From Sneathia vaginalis (GTDB taxonomy: Bacteria; Fusobacteriota; Fusobacteriia; Fusobacteriales; Leptotrichiaceae): 64,000 nt of DNA. The notes beneath the pieces are model-generated. The model was not told where the DNA came from. It did no database searches and was given only the letters and a program-made list of their open reading frames with translations. How positions within the stretch are numbered: position 1 is the stretch's first letter; every line of letters starts with the position of its first letter. The position numbers and the translations under genes were made by a program. Below, in pieces: positions 6,438 to 13,000 of this stretch. The DNA is taken from positions 460,642 through 524,641 of the forward strand of contig NZ_CP011280.1 of NCBI RefSeq assembly GCF_000973085.1, read 5' to 3'.

Positions 6438-6446
6438 ATAATTTGG

Positions 6447-6470
6447 GCATGCAATGGCATGCTTTTTTTT
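6447..6470 (+). terminator. Rho-independent terminator after the ClC gene
   Basis: A GCATGC / GCATGC stem with loop AATG followed by eight T. Confidence 0.85.
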
Positions 6471-6533: not shown

Positions 6534-6561
6534 TTGAAACTTAGTTGTTAATGAATATAAT
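6534..6561 (+). promoter_or_regulatory. Promoter of the PTS/aldolase/DhaKL operon
   Basis: TTGAAA (6534-6539), a 16-base spacer and TATAAT (6556-6561), 21 bases before the regulator gene start. It appears to be the only promoter before the terminator at 12969-13000. Confidence 0.65.
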
Positions 6562-6582
6562 AGTATAAAAGAAGGTGAGAAA

Positions 6583-8610
6583 ATGATTTTAAATGAGCGT
6601 GAAATAAAGATATTAGAAAAATTCTATAACAAATCAGAACTTAGCATATATGAGTTAGCAAAAGAATTTAATGTATCAGAAAGAATGATACGTTATAACA
6701 TAGATAGAATAAATGATGTATTGAGCTTTATTAGGATATCACCTATAAAAAAATCTTCTAAAGGTACAATAATTTTAAATATAGAGGGTAAAGAAAACAA
6801 GATATTGGAGATAATAAAAAAATTAGAACCTTTGGATAAAAATAAAAAAATAACAATTATACAGTGGTTAATCTTATTCTCAAAAGAAAAAATAACAATA
6901 ACTTATTTAACAAAATATTTTGATTTATCAAGGGGTACAATAATAAATTACCTGAATGAATTAAAGAAAAGATTAGAAGTAAAGGGAATAAAAATTGAAA
7001 ATGATAATGGTCTTTATTTAAAAGGGGATAGAGAAAATTTAGAAAATTATAGATTCAATATATTGTTTGATGATATAAAGTACATTTATAAAGAAGATGA
7101 TAATGAGATTTCTGTAAAGTTAAATGAAATAATATTTCAAAACATAGACAAAAATACATTTAAGTCCATTAAACAATTTATAGATGAGATAATAAGTGAT
7201 TTTAAATTAAGTGTTAATGATATAAATTACAGAATTTTATTTACTCGTTTTCTAATTATATTTATCGAAAAATCTAAAAGTACAAAAGAGTATGTGATAA
7301 AAGAGTCTGATAAAAAATATGTTTTGAATAAACTAAGATTATTAAATTTAACTAGTAAAGTAACAAAACAAATGCTAGAGCAAATTATAGATCTTGTAGC
7401 ATGGATAAAACAAAGTGATAATTATCAGGAAAAAGATGTGAATATAGGTGTAGTTGTTAAAAATATAATTAGTCAGGTAGAAGCTAAGATAAATAAGAAT
7501 ATAACAAAAGATAAATTATTATTTGAATTTTTATTACAACATGTAAATGCATTAATTAACAGAATAGATAACGGATATATGCTTGATGTACAAACGTTAG
7601 ATGAAAGCTATAAAAAGAAAGATGCTTTCTTCTATATTATAAAAGACTCTATGGGGTTATTAAATAATGTATTAAATAAAAAAATTGATGATGATGAAAT
7701 ACACTTATTAAAGATACATTTTTTAGCATCAATAGAACGTATAAATAGATTAGAATTAAAACCTGTAGAAGTTGCGGTTATAACATCATTTGGAAGTGGT
7801 AGTAATAAAATATTAGTAGATAATATACAAAATAGATTTTATATAAAAGTATCATATGTAGGATCTATATATAACTTTAATAAGGCTTTAAAAAATAATT
7901 TAAATATTAAATATATATTGACTACAGTAAAATTAGATGAAAAAGAATATGAAGATAAAATTATTGTTAATATAAGCCCAGTTATAACTGAAAAAGAAAG
8001 GCAAACATTACTTAAATTAGGTTTTAAGAGCAATATTAATAAAATACTTCTATCAAACATAGTAGATATAGTAAGAAGAAGTTCAGAGAAATTAGATTAT
8101 GAAAAATTTATATCCGAGTTATTAAATAATTTTGGCGACAAGATAGTTAATGATATAGAAATATTAGACGAGTATGAAAATATTTTAAAAGAAGAAAATA
8201 TCATATTTAACTATGATGCAAAAGATATTTATGATGCCTTAGAAAAAGGATGCAGCTTATTAGAAGGAGAATTTACAGATAAGAGTTATACAAAAGATAT
8301 ATTAAGTATATATGAAAAAAATAATTCACATATCATTCGATATAATGGCTTGATATTACCACATACAAAGAATAATAATAATGTTCATAAGACGGGAGTT
8401 TCAATAATAAGTTTAAAAGAACCTGTTAATATAAAAGAAACGGGTGAAATGATAGATACAGTAGTAAGTTTTTCTATAAAAGATGAAAAGAAATCATTGG
8501 ACATTATTAGTAATTTAATAAATATGGTATTTAAGAGTGAATTTAAAGAAATACTTAATGAGAAAAATAAATATAAAATAGTAGAATATTTAAAAAATTA
8601 TAAACTATAG
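6583..8610 (+). CDS. PRD-containing transcriptional regulator (BglG/MtlR-type) with EIIB-like and EIIA domains
   Basis: A 675-residue regulator whose activity should be set by PTS phosphorylation. Apparent order: N-terminal HTH (ELSIYELAKEFNVSERMIRYNID, about 15-40) and a second HTH (TYLTKYFDLSRGTIINYLNEL), two PRD domains (about 180-400), an EIIB-Gat-like domain (about 405-490) where the phospho-cysteine is replaced (ITSFGSGS), and a C-terminal EIIA domain with GLILPHTK carrying a candidate histidine. This is the MtlR-type activator architecture, DNA-binding rather than RNA-binding. As first gene of the operon it very probably controls it and perhaps itself. The inducing sugar is unknown. 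Confidence 0.87.
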   Translation: MILNEREIKILEKFYNKSELSIYELAKEFNVSERMIRYNIDRINDVLSFIRISPIKKSSKGTIILNIEGKENKILEIIKKLEPLDKNKKITIIQWLILFSKEKITITYLTKYFDLSRGTIINYLNELKKRLEVKGIKIENDNGLYLKGDRENLENYRFNILFDDIKYIYKEDDNEISVKLNEIIFQNIDKNTFKSIKQFIDEIISDFKLSVNDINYRILFTRFLIIFIEKSKSTKEYVIKESDKKYVLNKLRLLNLTSKVTKQMLEQIIDLVAWIKQSDNYQEKDVNIGVVVKNIISQVEAKINKNITKDKLLFEFLLQHVNALINRIDNGYMLDVQTLDESYKKKDAFFYIIKDSMGLLNNVLNKKIDDDEIHLLKIHFLASIERINRLELKPVEVAVITSFGSGSNKILVDNIQNRFYIKVSYVGSIYNFNKALKNNLNIKYILTTVKLDEKEYEDKIIVNISPVITEKERQTLLKLGFKSNINKILLSNIVDIVRRSSEKLDYEKFISELLNNFGDKIVNDIEILDEYENILKEENIIFNYDAKDIYDALEKGCSLLEGEFTDKSYTKDILSIYEKNNSHIIRYNGLILPHTKNNNNVHKTGVSIISLKEPVNIKETGEMIDTVVSFSIKDEKKSLDIISNLINMVFKSEFKEILNEKNKYKIVEYLKNYKL

Positions 8611-8624
8611 AACAGGAGATTGGT

Positions 8625-9080
8625 ATGTTATTTAATAAAGAAGATATATATTTTAATGTAGAAGCAGAAAATAGAGAAGACCTAATTAGAAAAATGTCCA
8701 AAATTTTTAAAGAACAAGGATATATTAAAGATGGTTATGAAGAATCATTAATTGAGAGAGAAAAAAATTATCCAACAGGATTAAATTTTGAAAAGTACTT
8801 CGTTGCAATACCTCATACAACATATTCATTAATAAATAGTCAAAGAATAGTGTTTGTTAGGTTAAAAAATGAAGTTGAGTTTGGAGAAATGGGTACAAAT
8901 GAAAAACAATTAAAAGTTAAAGTAGTCCTATTCCTATTAATCAAAAAAGGTGAAGAACAAGTAACCGTCTTATTAAACTTAATGAAAATTTTAGGCGATG
9001 AAGATTGCTATAATACACTAGAAAAAAGTGAAGATAAAGAAGAAGTATATAACATATTAGTAAATAAATATGGAAAATAA
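8625..9080 (+). CDS. PTS EIIA component, galactitol/fructose type
   Basis: A 151-residue soluble phosphotransfer protein. The phosphorylated histidine is H64 in FVAIPHTTY, typical of the PTS EIIA type 2 family. It passes phosphate from HPr to the adjacent EIIB. It starts at ATG 8625 with AGGAGA, 14 bases after the regulator, and is followed 12 bases later by EIIB. The order EIIA-EIIB-EIIC as separate genes is that of the Gat family; the name gatA would describe the family, not a proven substrate. Confidence 0.88.
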   Translation: MLFNKEDIYFNVEAENREDLIRKMSKIFKEQGYIKDGYEESLIEREKNYPTGLNFEKYFVAIPHTTYSLINSQRIVFVRLKNEVEFGEMGTNEKQLKVKVVLFLLIKKGEEQVTVLLNLMKILGDEDCYNTLEKSEDKEEVYNILVNKYGK

Positions 9081-9092
9081 TAGGAGGTATAT

Positions 9093-9371
9093 ATGAAAAG
9101 AATAGTAGTAGCATGCGGTTCAGGAATAGCAACATCACAAACAGTTGCATCAAAGATTAATTCAATGTTAGAAGATGATGGGATTAGTGCAACAGTAGAA
9201 TCTGTTGATATAAAGGCATTAGAAAATATTATATCACAAGTTGATATTTATGTAACAATAGTTCCAGGATCAGAAACATATGGTAAGCCAACAATAAATG
9301 GTATTAAATTTTTAACAGGTCTAGGTATGGAAGAAGAATACGAAAAATTAAAAGAATTAATTGCAAAGTAG
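9093..9371 (+). CDS. PTS EIIB component, galactitol type
   Basis: A 92-residue EIIB protein starting MKRIVVACGSGIATSQ; the phospho-acceptor is C8 in the P-loop-like ACGSG motif. It transfers phosphate to the sugar bound by EIIC. There is a strong ribosome site AGGAGG just upstream. The length is normal for GatB (about 94). It is soluble and cytoplasmic, working with the flanking EIIA and EIIC. Confidence 0.9.
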   Translation: MKRIVVACGSGIATSQTVASKINSMLEDDGISATVESVDIKALENIISQVDIYVTIVPGSETYGKPTINGIKFLTGLGMEEEYEKLKELIAK

Positions 9372-9384
9372 AAGAGGAGTATTT

Positions 9385-10719
9385 ATGTTAAAACAAGTAG
9401 TAGACTATATTTTAGGACTAGGTCCAGCAATATTTTTACCAATAATTATGATAATAATTGGTATAATAATCAGAATGAAAATTAAAAGAGCAATTTTAGC
9501 AGGTATAACTTTGGGTATAGCATTTACTGGTATGTCATTGATACTAGGTTTCATGTTTGAAACAATAAGCCCAGTTGCTGCAAAATTCGTTGAAACAACA
9601 GGTATACATTTAAATACAGTAGATGTAGGATGGGCACCAATGTCAGCAATAGCTTGGGCATGGCCATATGCATTATTAATGTTCCCTATTCAAATAGTTA
9701 TTAACCTAATACTATTAGGATTTAACTTTACAAATGTATTAAATGTAGATATGTGGAATGTTTGGGGTAAAATTTTTACAGCAACAATGGTTATAGCTAT
9801 AACTCATAGCTTAATATTAGGATTTGTAGCTGCAGTTATACAAATAATATTAGAATTAAAAACAGCAGAAGTTACTCAAAAGAGAATATATAAAATAACT
9901 AGTATTCCTGGTGTAACTTGTACACACTATATGACATTACAATGTGCAATGATGGAACCAATTAATAAGGTATTAGACTTAATACCTGCAATAAAAAACA
10001 GTACATTTGATTCAGAAAAATTAAAATCAAAAATAGGTGTATTTGGTGAAAATTCAGTTATGGGATTCATAATAGGTGGTCTATTTGCATTGGTTGCAAG
10101 ATACTCAGTAAGTGAAACATTACAAATAGCAATTAAAGTTTCTGCATCACTAGTTCTATTCCCTATGGTAGCAAAATTATTCATGCAATCATTAGCACCA
10201 ATTGCAGATGCAGCAGGTGCATACATGAAGAATAAATATAAAGATAGAGAAATATATATAGGTCTAGACTGGCCATTCTTAGCAGGGCAAGCAGAATTAT
10301 GGGTTATCTCTATCTTAATAGTACCAGTATCAATAGTACTAGCATTAGTATTTTCAAAATTAAATCTAAATACAATATTACCTCTAGCAGGTATAGTAAA
10401 TGTAATAGTTGTTGTACCAGCAATGATCGTTAGTAAAAAGAATTTAATAAAGATGTTCATATTAAGTGTAATATTTACACCAGCATATCTAATAGTATCA
10501 TCAAGTTTTGCACCTTATGTTACAGAACTTGCAAGACAAGTAGGAACTATTGATATACCAAGTGGACAAATGATTAGTTACTTTGGTGTAGAAGCTCCAA
10601 TATTTAGATGGGTGTTAGCAAATGGCTTAGCACTTAGATGGCAAGGATTATTAGGTGTTGTTATATTTATAGTCCTATACGCAGTATTCTATATCACAAT
10701 GAGAAAGGAAAATGAATGA
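9385..10719 (+). CDS. PTS EIIC component, galactitol family permease
   Basis: A 444-residue permease with roughly nine or more hydrophobic segments; GatC-family landmarks include GPAIFLPIIMIIIGI near the N-terminus and FWGVEAP-like YFGVEAPIFRW near the C-terminus. I set the start at ATG 9385, which follows GAAGAGGAG; the open frame extends to 9361 but that would overlap gatB. It imports an unidentified sugar or polyol, phosphorylating it at C1 by analogy with galactitol. Its stop overlaps the aldolase start by 4 bases, so uptake and cleavage are translationally coupled. Confidence 0.88.
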   Translation: MLKQVVDYILGLGPAIFLPIIMIIIGIIIRMKIKRAILAGITLGIAFTGMSLILGFMFETISPVAAKFVETTGIHLNTVDVGWAPMSAIAWAWPYALLMFPIQIVINLILLGFNFTNVLNVDMWNVWGKIFTATMVIAITHSLILGFVAAVIQIILELKTAEVTQKRIYKITSIPGVTCTHYMTLQCAMMEPINKVLDLIPAIKNSTFDSEKLKSKIGVFGENSVMGFIIGGLFALVARYSVSETLQIAIKVSASLVLFPMVAKLFMQSLAPIADAAGAYMKNKYKDREIYIGLDWPFLAGQAELWVISILIVPVSIVLALVFSKLNLNTILPLAGIVNVIVVVPAMIVSKKNLIKMFILSVIFTPAYLIVSSSFAPYVTELARQVGTIDIPSGQMISYFGVEAPIFRWVLANGLALRWQGLLGVVIFIVLYAVFYITMRKENE

Positions 10720-11372
10720 ACGAAGAATTAAAAAAAGAATTATTAGAAGTTGCAAGACAAGCACAAAGAATAGGCTTATGTAAACACAAATCAGGTAATT
10801 TTAGTGTTAGAATACCTGGAACAAATAAGCTATATGTCACACCATCTGCAATTGATAGAGAAGAATTAACTGAAGATGATTTATGTATAATGGACTTAGA
10901 TGGTAACGTTCTTTATCATAAAGAAGGAGTTAAGCCATCAAGTGAAACTATGATGCATTTGGAAATATATAAAGAAAGAGAAGATGTAAAAGCTATAGTT
11001 CATACACATTCTAAAATGGCAACAGCATTTGCTGTATTAGCAAAACCTATACCAGGTGTAATATTCGAAGCAGCAACATTAGGTTTAAAAGAAGGTTATG
11101 TACCAGTTGCAAAATACGCAAGACCTGGTACAGTTGAATTATCTAAATCTGTAATAGAACCTATAAGAATATCTGATATGGTATTATTAGAAAAACATGG
11201 AGTTGTAGCAGTAGGATGCGATATAAAAGATGCATTTTTAAAAGCACAATATGTAGAAGAAATAGCAGAAATATACTATATGACATTAATGATAAATAAA
11301 GGAGTTGAACCGCCAAGATTTTCAGTTGAAGAATTAAACAAGTGGAAATATCCAGAAAAATTTTCAAAATAA
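10716..11372 (+). CDS. Class II aldolase/epimerase, L-fuculose-phosphate-aldolase type
   Basis: A 218-residue zinc enzyme of the AraD/FucA family. The ligands line up with FucA: E77 (PSSE), H96 and H98 (VHTHS), H161 (LEKHGVVAVG). FucA cleaves L-fuculose-1-phosphate to DHAP and lactaldehyde, while related enzymes act on other ketose-1-phosphates or epimerise ribulose phosphates. Because the upstream PTS would deliver a 1-phosphorylated sugar and there is no dehydrogenase or isomerase gene in the operon, direct aldol cleavage of an imported ketose-1-phosphate is the simplest reading. The exact substrate is not deducible. Confidence 0.85.
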   Translation: MNEELKKELLEVARQAQRIGLCKHKSGNFSVRIPGTNKLYVTPSAIDREELTEDDLCIMDLDGNVLYHKEGVKPSSETMMHLEIYKEREDVKAIVHTHSKMATAFAVLAKPIPGVIFEAATLGLKEGYVPVAKYARPGTVELSKSVIEPIRISDMVLLEKHGVVAVGCDIKDAFLKAQYVEEIAEIYYMTLMINKGVEPPRFSVEELNKWKYPEKFSK

Positions 11373-11384
11373 AGAGGTTGTGTG

Positions 11385-12371
11385 ATGAAAAAAATAATAA
11401 ACAAAAAGGAAGACTACGTTAAAGAATTGGTAAATGGAATAGTAAAAGCTCATAGTGATAAAGTAAAATTATTAAACGATGACTTTAGAATTTTAGTTAA
11501 AAAGGAAAAATCACAAGATAAAGTAGGGCTTGTAACTGGAGGTGGAAGTGGACATTTACCATTGTTTCTAGGTTATGTAGGAGAAGGAATGTTGGATGCC
11601 TGTGCTATAGGTAATGTATTTGCATCACCATCAAGTAAAAAGATGTATGAAGCAATAAAGTACGTTGACTCAGGGAAAGGTGTATTATGCGTATATGGAA
11701 ACTATGGTGGAGACAAGATGAATTTTTCTATGGCAAGAGATGAAAGTAGTTTTGATGATATTGAAGTTGAAGAAGTAATAGTTAGTGATGATATTGCTTC
11801 ATCAAATGATAAAAAATCAAGAAGAGGAGTCGCAGGATTAGTATATGCATATAAGATAGCAGGGACATTAGCAAAAAAAGGATATACTTTAAAAGAAGTA
11901 AAGTCTAAAACAGAAAAAGCGTTAGAAAATATTAGAACTATGGGTATTGCACTAACACCATGCATAGTTCCAGAAGTAGGAAAACCTACATTTACCATCT
12001 TAGAAAATGAAATGGAAATAGGTATGGGTATACATGGTGAAAAAGGAATTAATACTACTAATATGAAAACAGCAAAAGAAATTGTTGATATTATACTAAA
12101 TAAAATAGAAACAGAAATAAAATTAGAAAAAGGAGATAAAATTTCTGTATTAGTTAATGGTTTAGGTGCTACATCATTAGATGAGCTATATATAGTATAT
12201 AATGAAATATATGATAGATATAGCAAAATAGGTGTTAATATATTAAAACCACTTATAGGTGAATATGCAACTTCAATGGAAATGGCAGGATTATCAATAA
12301 CAGTATTTAAGTTGGATAATGAAACTGAAGAATTACTTTTAAGTGAAGATGAATTAACATTTATGAAATGA
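11385..12371 (+). CDS. dhaK: Dihydroxyacetone kinase subunit DhaK
   Basis: A substrate-binding subunit of the two-component dihydroxyacetone kinase. Visible features: GGGSGHLP (52-59), the NYGGDK loop with D110, and the covalent substrate-binding H217 in GMGIHGEKG, matching His218 of E. coli DhaK. I prefer ATG 11385 (7 bases after AGAGG) to the GTG just before it. DhaL follows; no DhaM is visible in the operon, so either DhaM is encoded elsewhere or the phosphoryl donor differs. Related DhaK proteins act on tetruloses and other C3-C4 ketoses, so the substrate could be a product of the aldolase rather than dihydroxyacetone itself. Confidence 0.92.
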   Translation: MKKIINKKEDYVKELVNGIVKAHSDKVKLLNDDFRILVKKEKSQDKVGLVTGGGSGHLPLFLGYVGEGMLDACAIGNVFASPSSKKMYEAIKYVDSGKGVLCVYGNYGGDKMNFSMARDESSFDDIEVEEVIVSDDIASSNDKKSRRGVAGLVYAYKIAGTLAKKGYTLKEVKSKTEKALENIRTMGIALTPCIVPEVGKPTFTILENEMEIGMGIHGEKGINTTNMKTAKEIVDIILNKIETEIKLEKGDKISVLVNGLGATSLDELYIVYNEIYDRYSKIGVNILKPLIGEYATSMEMAGLSITVFKLDNETEELLLSEDELTFMK

Positions 12372-12380
12372 GGCATAATA

Positions 12381-12968
12381 ATGAGCGTTGATATAAAAGA
12401 AATATTTAAAAAAATTTATGGCAATATACATACTAATAAAGAATATTTAATTAAATTAGATCAAGAATTTGGAGATGGAGACTTAGGTTTAACTATGGAT
12501 GAAGGATTTAATGCAGTATGTGATTATGTACAAAAAAATGAAATAGCTGATAAAGGTATATTATTTAAGGATATAAGCAGTTCATTTAACGAAGCAGCAC
12601 CTTCATCATTAGGAACAATAATTTCTATGTTTTTCATGGGAATGGCAAGGGAATTAAAAGGTAAGACTGATCCTACAAAGGAAGAATATATATATTCATT
12701 ACAAAAAGGATTAGAATACTTGAAATCTAAAATAGATACTAAATTAGGTGATAAGACAATTTTAGACTCATTAGAACCAGCTATTGTAGAATTTAATAAA
12801 ACTAAGGATAAAATAAAGGCATATGAAAGTGCAAAAGAAGGAATGGAAGAAACAAAAAATATGATTTCTAATCAAGGTAGAGCAAAGTATCATGGAGAAA
12901 AAACATTAGGTCATATAGATGGTGGAGCTTATGTGTCATACTTGGTATTTAAGAGTATTTCCGAATAA
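12381..12968 (+). CDS. dhaL: Dihydroxyacetone kinase ADP-binding subunit DhaL
   Basis: The nucleotide-binding subunit pairing with DhaK. The two-magnesium aspartates D27, D32 and D34 (LDQEFGDGDLG) correspond to the D-x4-D-x-D motif of DhaL, and the family C-terminal segment appears as YHGEKTLGHIDGGA. The 195-residue length is slightly short of E. coli DhaL (210). In PTS-dependent systems DhaL keeps bound ADP that is rephosphorylated by DhaM; whether that applies here is open because no DhaM gene is present. Last gene of the operon. Confidence 0.92.
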   Translation: MSVDIKEIFKKIYGNIHTNKEYLIKLDQEFGDGDLGLTMDEGFNAVCDYVQKNEIADKGILFKDISSSFNEAAPSSLGTIISMFFMGMARELKGKTDPTKEEYIYSLQKGLEYLKSKIDTKLGDKTILDSLEPAIVEFNKTKDKIKAYESAKEGMEETKNMISNQGRAKYHGEKTLGHIDGGAYVSYLVFKSISE

Positions 12969-13000
12969 AAAAAGCTAGGATTAAAATCCTAGTTTTTTTT
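12969..13000. terminator. Bidirectional terminator between dhaL and the purine permease
   Basis: CTAGGATT (12975-12982) and AATCCTAG (12985-12992) flanked by an A-run on the left and a T-run on the right, so it can end transcription from both converging units. Confidence 0.85.

Follow-up and report, generated by a model that had tools for sequence, protein, structure and literature searches.

Gene content and boundaries of the operon

The present analysis concerns an operon found within a 64,000-nucleotide stretch (the window) of the genome of Sneathia vaginalis, which consists of a single contig of 1,330,224 bases (NZ_CP011280.1); the window corresponds to its positions 460642-524641. The operon combines a sugar phosphotransferase system (PTS), composed of enzymes IIA, IIB and IIC (EIIA, EIIB, EIIC), with an aldolase resembling FucA and with DhaK and DhaL, homologous to dihydroxyacetone (DHA) kinase proteins. 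The original prediction, made from the sequence alone, had described these genes and a regulator as one unit, lying between one promoter and one terminator. All seven were found, and their families could be assigned, concordantly, through Pfam and NCBIfam. The features, in coordinates of the window, are:

6534-6561, + strand: promoter-like site, TTGAAA-16-TATAAT, 11 of 12 consensus matches (a consensus match only)
6583-8610, + strand: PRD-type transcriptional regulator, with HTH_11, Mga and PRD domains and a C-terminal EIIA-like domain carrying His594
8625-9080, + strand: PTS EIIA (PF00359, PTS_EIIA_2), active-site His64
9093-9371, + strand: PTS EIIB (PTS_IIB), galactitol-like, active-site Cys8
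9385-10719, + strand: PTS EIIC, EIIC-GAT family; best start, ATG at 9385
10716-11372, + strand: FucA-like class II aldolase (Aldolase_II), its start overlapping the EIIC stop by 4 bases
11385-12371, + strand: DhaK (Dak1) of the "L-type" clade, GSGHLP; His57, Asp110, His217; best start, ATG at 11385
12381-12968, + strand: DhaL (Dak2) of the "L-type" clade, GDGDLG, PSSLGT
12975-13000, + strand: terminator, CTAGGATTAAAATCCTAG stem followed by T8; also usable on the - strand

The seven genes, all on the + strand between 6583 and 12968, are separated by short gaps or overlap, and a purine-rich sequence resembling a ribosome-binding site precedes each of them. A single promoter-like site and a single terminator do flank the set. 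By count, promoter-like matches are not significant (41 found, against 54 expected in shuffled sequences), and what speaks for this one is its location directly before the first ATG. The terminator of the upstream gene lies at 6445-6464; at the other end, the stem of the bidirectional terminator spans 12975-12992, with the T8 run directly after it. From promoter to terminator, the seven genes include no isomerase, dehydrogenase, second sugar kinase or DhaM. Genome-wide checks in S. vaginalis were carried out as family searches, and the operon DhaK proved to be the sole Dak1 gene of the genome.

Occurrence of the gene set in other genomes

The set of EIIABC, aldolase and DhaKL is kept in two other Leptotrichiaceae genomes (G008 and G025), at two loci of metagenome-assembled genomes (MAGs), one from Tissierellia (L003) and one from Eubacteriaceae (L004), and on plasmids (L073, L075 and L077). 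In the two Leptotrichiaceae it is about 65% identical and includes an extra HPr gene. The Tissierellia set is accompanied by a HAD phosphatase, while the Eubacteriaceae contig holds the end of the regulator, the aldolase, DhaKL and EIIB; both MAG loci are cut by contig ends, and some PTS parts fall beyond the readable sequence. Plasmids of Klebsiella, E. coli, Citrobacter and Enterobacter carry the set with an aldolase 54% identical to that of S. vaginalis, followed by HPr and by a second, divergent DhaKL.

The distribution is patchy. A search of 5,426 E. coli genomes produced six occurrences of the set, always plasmid-borne, and among about 100 Fusobacteriota genomes searched, at the chosen cut-offs, only S. 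vaginalis and the two Leptotrichiaceae mentioned above have it. Such patchiness, as well as the position of one Bacillota member within the same small clade, is suggestive of horizontal transfer. The set is both real and mobile, a module recurring across several phyla and plasmids rather than a peculiarity of S. vaginalis. On two plasmids (L073:2731-17967 and L075), the cassette lies inside a block with ilvD, ilvA, ilvY, ilvC, fabV (enoyl-ACP reductase) and ppiC, where a large set of branched-chain amino acid genes adjoins the sugar operon.

A separate clade of DhaK and DhaL proteins

As in the DhaKLM systems of E. coli and L. lactis, the operon DhaK features the His57/Asp110/His217 triad (equivalent to His56/Asp109/His218 of the DhaKLM DhaK), and DhaL the aspartates Asp27, Asp32 and Asp34. 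In a tree of 53 proteins, however, the S. vaginalis DhaK groups with all the aldolase-linked DhaKs and one Nitratireductor DhaK (support 100/98), apart both from the DhaM-linked DHA kinases and from DhaKs of erythritol-type loci, which contain RpiB and alcohol dehydrogenase. Every inspected pair of the clade features a paired signature, GSGH-L-P in DhaK together with GDGD-L-G in DhaL, where DhaKLM has GSGH-E-P and GD[GAS]D-H-G; nearly all the other DhaK/DhaL pairs combine E or K with H, and have a GP or GA loop. The phosphate loop of the clade DhaL is of the S-[ST]-[LMF]-GT type, with one exception (L184, AATMGT). In S. vaginalis, DhaL has APSSLGTI and GDGDLG in place of the GGASGP and GD.DHG motifs. 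A joint change of both Leu positions would fit a contact between the DhaK and DhaL subunits.

Among the new elements of the analysis, this clade with its paired signature is the strongest. A profile search yielded further members in other phyla; L-type hosts include Bacillota, Fusobacteriota, Alphaproteobacteria and clinical Klebsiella and E. coli plasmids. Models of the DhaKLM type score below their cut-offs (123.9 bits against 138.3 for DhaL, 382.8 against 406.25 for DhaK), and membership among the DhaKLM-type DHA kinases was rejected on the basis of clade, motifs and the lack of a linked DhaM. Two Fusobacteriaceae loci (L104 and L105) hold a divergent DhaK/DhaL pair lacking the GSGHxP motif; the L105 pair adjoins a gene that is LsrF-like by eye.

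The tree also bears on the substrate. Its nearest clades are DhaKLs of the RpiB/alcohol-dehydrogenase loci, and an L-erythrulose 1-kinase, LerK, is known in M. smegmatis, according to a citation of it in PMC10733421. The operon kinase might accordingly act on four-carbon erythrose, threose or erythrulose, which would make the imported sugar a heptulose, unless the kinase serves some other reaction. We consider this quite improbable. The operon shares with the erythritol and threitol systems (LerK, and loci L085 and L086) a DhaKL without DhaM in a sugar catabolic context, but those loci belong to another clade, contain RpiB, dehydrogenases and transporters, and have neither a PTS nor a FucA-like aldolase. 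Conversely, the operon has no RpiB, tetrulose-phosphate isomerase, dehydrogenase, transaldolase or transketolase, and the L/L signature sets its kinase apart from the erythritol-type ones.

In none of the clade loci does DhaM adjoin DhaK, and it is absent (E<=0.001) from 12 of the 17 genomes with clade kinases. Among the remaining ones, two have a full DhaM, while three Leptotrichiaceae have a distant orphan gene, scoring under cut-off. Since DhaM is missing both beside the clade kinases and in most of their genomes, the L-type clade most likely uses ATP. The predicted lack of DhaM thus holds for the operon, but needs qualifying for the genome: the search revealed an orphan DhaM-like gene (G000:C1:179971-180357, locus L194:7971-8357; 72 bits, cut-off 98), 280 kb away from the operon. 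Its neighbors are RimM/TrmD-like and PtsI-like genes. The orphan is also present in G008, in G025 and in a Sneathia congener, G001, where no DhaK was detected at E<=1e-50, in agreement with the published report that DHA kinases are carried by S. vaginalis only (PMC13393775). The orphan is unlikely to act as phosphoryl donor, being retained in the congener without DhaK, while most clade genomes lack DhaM; it may be a relic, or an EIIA put to another use. In G016 (L098), a full dhaKLM operon is found near genes similar to the neighbors of the orphan.

The PTS, the aldolase and the proposed pathway

EIIA, EIIB and EIIC belong to the galactitol family, like GatABC. All three score well below the galactitol cut-offs (62.7 against 139 bits for EIIA, 40.1 against 95 for EIIB), and EIIC is so far under that of TIGR00827 (281.7 against 542.2 bits) that it is not a galactitol EIIC equivalog. 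Unlike the galactitol system (GatY/GatZ/GatD), the operon contains neither galactitol-1-phosphate dehydrogenase, GatD, nor the GatYZ aldolase. A galactitol pathway is therefore disfavored. In published tests (PMC3535699), S. amnii fermented glucose, maltose and glycogen, whereas fructose, galactose, mannose and sucrose were not fermented; the same paper terms unclear what its galactitol-type PTS does. That system is probably the one described here; the identification is uncertain because the S. vaginalis genome encodes two further EIIC-GAT family proteins, one of them within an ascorbate-type PTS locus. Other PTS genes in S. vaginalis (L200, L199) include mannose-type sets by glycosidase-like genes and an ascorbate-type PTS accompanied by an AraD-like epimerase. 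In two large Leptotrichiaceae genomes (L093 in G016, L094 in G009), galactitol-type PTS operons feature two EIIC genes around one class II aldolase/epimerase, belonging to a group with Asp at position 73.

The aldolase is 32% identical to E. coli FucA (1FUA), whose class II fold family it shares, and retains the equivalents of Glu73, of the metal-binding His triad and of the C-terminal Tyr209. It scores far below the cut-off of the FucA model (115 bits against 400), and no fucose isomerase or kinase is found nearby; throughout its clade, position 26 is Lys or Arg instead of Thr, and position 131 Pro instead of Phe, the S. vaginalis protein itself having Lys26 and Pro131. The enzyme and its whole clade have Glu where AraD has Asp76, which makes an epimerase improbable. 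A second close homologue in the genome, located in the ascorbate-type PTS locus, is AraD-like, being 63% identical to E. coli AraD and having Asp at that position. For the operon enzyme, an AraD-type epimerase is disfavored. Lone copies of the aldolase clade occur in Selenomonas (L006-L009) without PTS or DhaKL, with glycolytic genes near those of L006-L008.

Genes flanking other clade kinases provide a further clue. Members of three unrelated aldolase families, FucA-like, DapA-like (L148, L149, L176, L182) and HpcH/HpaI (L108, L176), are found beside L-type kinases; several of the DapA-like or HpcH/HpaI loci include tripartite tricarboxylate transporters, and in L185 the kinase adjoins a galactonate dehydratase. 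The keto products of the pyruvate-type or 2-keto-3-deoxygluconate-type aldolases differ from those of the FucA type, and the product type that they share is a short free aldehyde. Among clade members found through DhaK similarity alone, 5 of 16 loci have an aldolase of these families on the strand of the kinase and no more than 6 kb away, compared with 2 of the 37 loci with other DhaKs (p=0.02). Glyceraldehyde is the favored aldehyde, because its phosphate feeds straight into glycolysis and because human TKFC, a DhaK-type enzyme, phosphorylates D-glyceraldehyde (PMC6429413).

We propose, with a probability of about 0.5, that the operon encodes a closed pathway catabolizing a ketohexose other than D-fructose. 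EIIABC would import the sugar and, most likely, phosphorylate it at C1; the FucA-like aldolase would split the ketose-1-phosphate into dihydroxyacetone phosphate (DHAP) and free glyceraldehyde; DhaKL, with ATP and not DhaM as phosphoryl donor, would convert the latter into glyceraldehyde-3-phosphate, and both halves would enter lower glycolysis. The PRD regulator is predicted to sense the PTS. What is observed is the gene content, the conservation of the set as a unit, the catalytic residues, the clade of the kinase and its independence from DhaM; phosphorylation at C1, a six-carbon substrate and glyceraldehyde as the kinase substrate are what we infer. If the substrate is a ketohexose, these seven genes are exactly those required, which explains the absence of isomerase, dehydrogenase and second sugar kinase.

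The best reading is thus a bacterial "triokinase" pathway without isomerase. It would share with the fructose-1-phosphate/triokinase (Hers) route of liver, in which TKFC acts (PMC6429413), the cleavage of a ketose-1-phosphate and the subsequent action of a DhaK/DhaL-type ATP kinase; the operon differs in having PTS import and phosphorylation, a FucA-like class II aldolase, where liver has aldolase B, and separate DhaK and DhaL chains. A self-contained route, with DhaKL acting after cleavage and without DhaM, had been part of the original prediction and agrees with these results. It also named no characterised pathway with these very genes, and the open-licence literature searched likewise yielded none. 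Carter and coworkers reportedly described, in 2018, an apulose route with an aldolase and a kinase.

Some substrates initially put forward do not fit. L-fuculose was rejected on chemical grounds, and rhamnulose is likewise disfavored, because their product, lactaldehyde, offers DhaKL no terminal hydroxyl. Pentuloses (xylulose, ribulose) or a branched sugar, from which the aldolase would produce DHAP and glycolaldehyde (or DHA), appear very unlikely. FucA-family enzymes do cleave ribulose-1-phosphate, and a halophilic ribulose-1-phosphate aldolase model is among the best NCBIfam matches, although far under cut-off (130 bits against 300); but glycolaldehyde phosphate would have no onward step with the genes present, and the operon contains no glycolaldehyde reductase or dehydrogenase. 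A branched sugar cleaved to DHAP plus DHA is conceivable.

The phosphate might instead be placed at the far end of the ketose. In AraD-type chemistry, based on the same fold, the phosphate is at the other end, and an AraD-like half-reaction would free DHA and an aldehyde phosphate (glyceraldehyde-3-phosphate, if the substrate is a ketohexose), leaving DhaKL to act as an ordinary DHA kinase producing DHAP. DhaK/DhaL classically act on DHA, the operon DhaK has an intact His57/Asp110/His217 triad, and the pathway is likewise closed with these genes. The aldolase, however, carries the Glu of FucA and not the Asp of AraD, and the kinase groups away from the DhaM-linked ones, with kinases found by aldolases that release pyruvate, their other product being a free aldehyde and not DHA. 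Such an arrangement is therefore unlikely.

Several observations weigh against the ketohexose route. In the aldolase, the equivalent of FucA Tyr113 is Phe, while being Tyr in 8 of 8 relatives of its clade; the claim that active sites are intact, correct for EIIA, EIIB, DhaK, DhaL and the Glu, His and Tyr209 residues of the aldolase, was thus slightly overstated. The enrichment of aldolases is modest, with p=0.08 once two further types of aldolase in the control loci are included. About half of the clade loci have ABC (ATP-binding cassette) transporters and no aldolase nearby, so that the kinase may there act on an imported sugar. In a peptoniphilaceous MAG (L002), a HAD phosphatase replaces DhaKL next to PTS and aldolase. 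Finally, one argument in favor of the route is indirect. One supported EIIC clade includes loci of E. faecalis and E. faecium, with a 1-phosphofructokinase/LacC-type kinase instead of DhaKL, and of L. salivarius, with reductases (aldo-keto reductase/alcohol dehydrogenase); these look like other ways of handling the second half of the sugar, by phosphorylation before cleavage or by reduction, but they encode another class II aldolase, sharing only 20-25% identity, hence the indirectness of the comparison.

The Phe at Tyr113, along with the residues at positions 26 and 131 unlike those of FucA, would also suit an epimerase, dehydratase or decarboxylase, all represented in the same superfamily, and the pathway would then differ. 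This is the least likely of the readings considered, given the conserved metal ligands, Glu73 and C-terminal Tyr, and the separate AraD-like protein encoded elsewhere in the genome.

As for the clade as a whole, the idea that it is exclusive to aldolase operons was dropped, since a search in Bacillota produced many members whose loci have ABC transporters but lack an aldolase. In five Bacillota loci (L177, L178, L179, L180 and L183), L-type DhaKL lies directly behind ribose-type ABC transporters. L177 and L178 additionally contain ureidoglycolate-lyase-like and tartronate-semialdehyde-reductase-like genes, a context that suggests another substrate route for the clade. We tentatively put forward, as a possibility somewhat short of an even chance, that L-type DhaKLs are a hitherto unrecognized family of ATP-dependent aldose (glyceraldehyde) kinases added after unrelated aldolases; the PTS version would then be a Hers pathway of bacterial type, serving a rare ketohexose and brought by horizontal transfer to vaginal Sneathia and to enterobacterial plasmids.

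The so far unclear role of a PTS, in a vaginal bacterium using only a very narrow range of sugars, would find an explanation in the operon, which would also hint at the sugar that this bacterium uses in its niche. More generally, the paired DhaK/DhaL signature separates proteins annotated as dihydroxyacetone kinases which probably are not, and gives a directly testable prediction of both substrate and phosphoryl donor.

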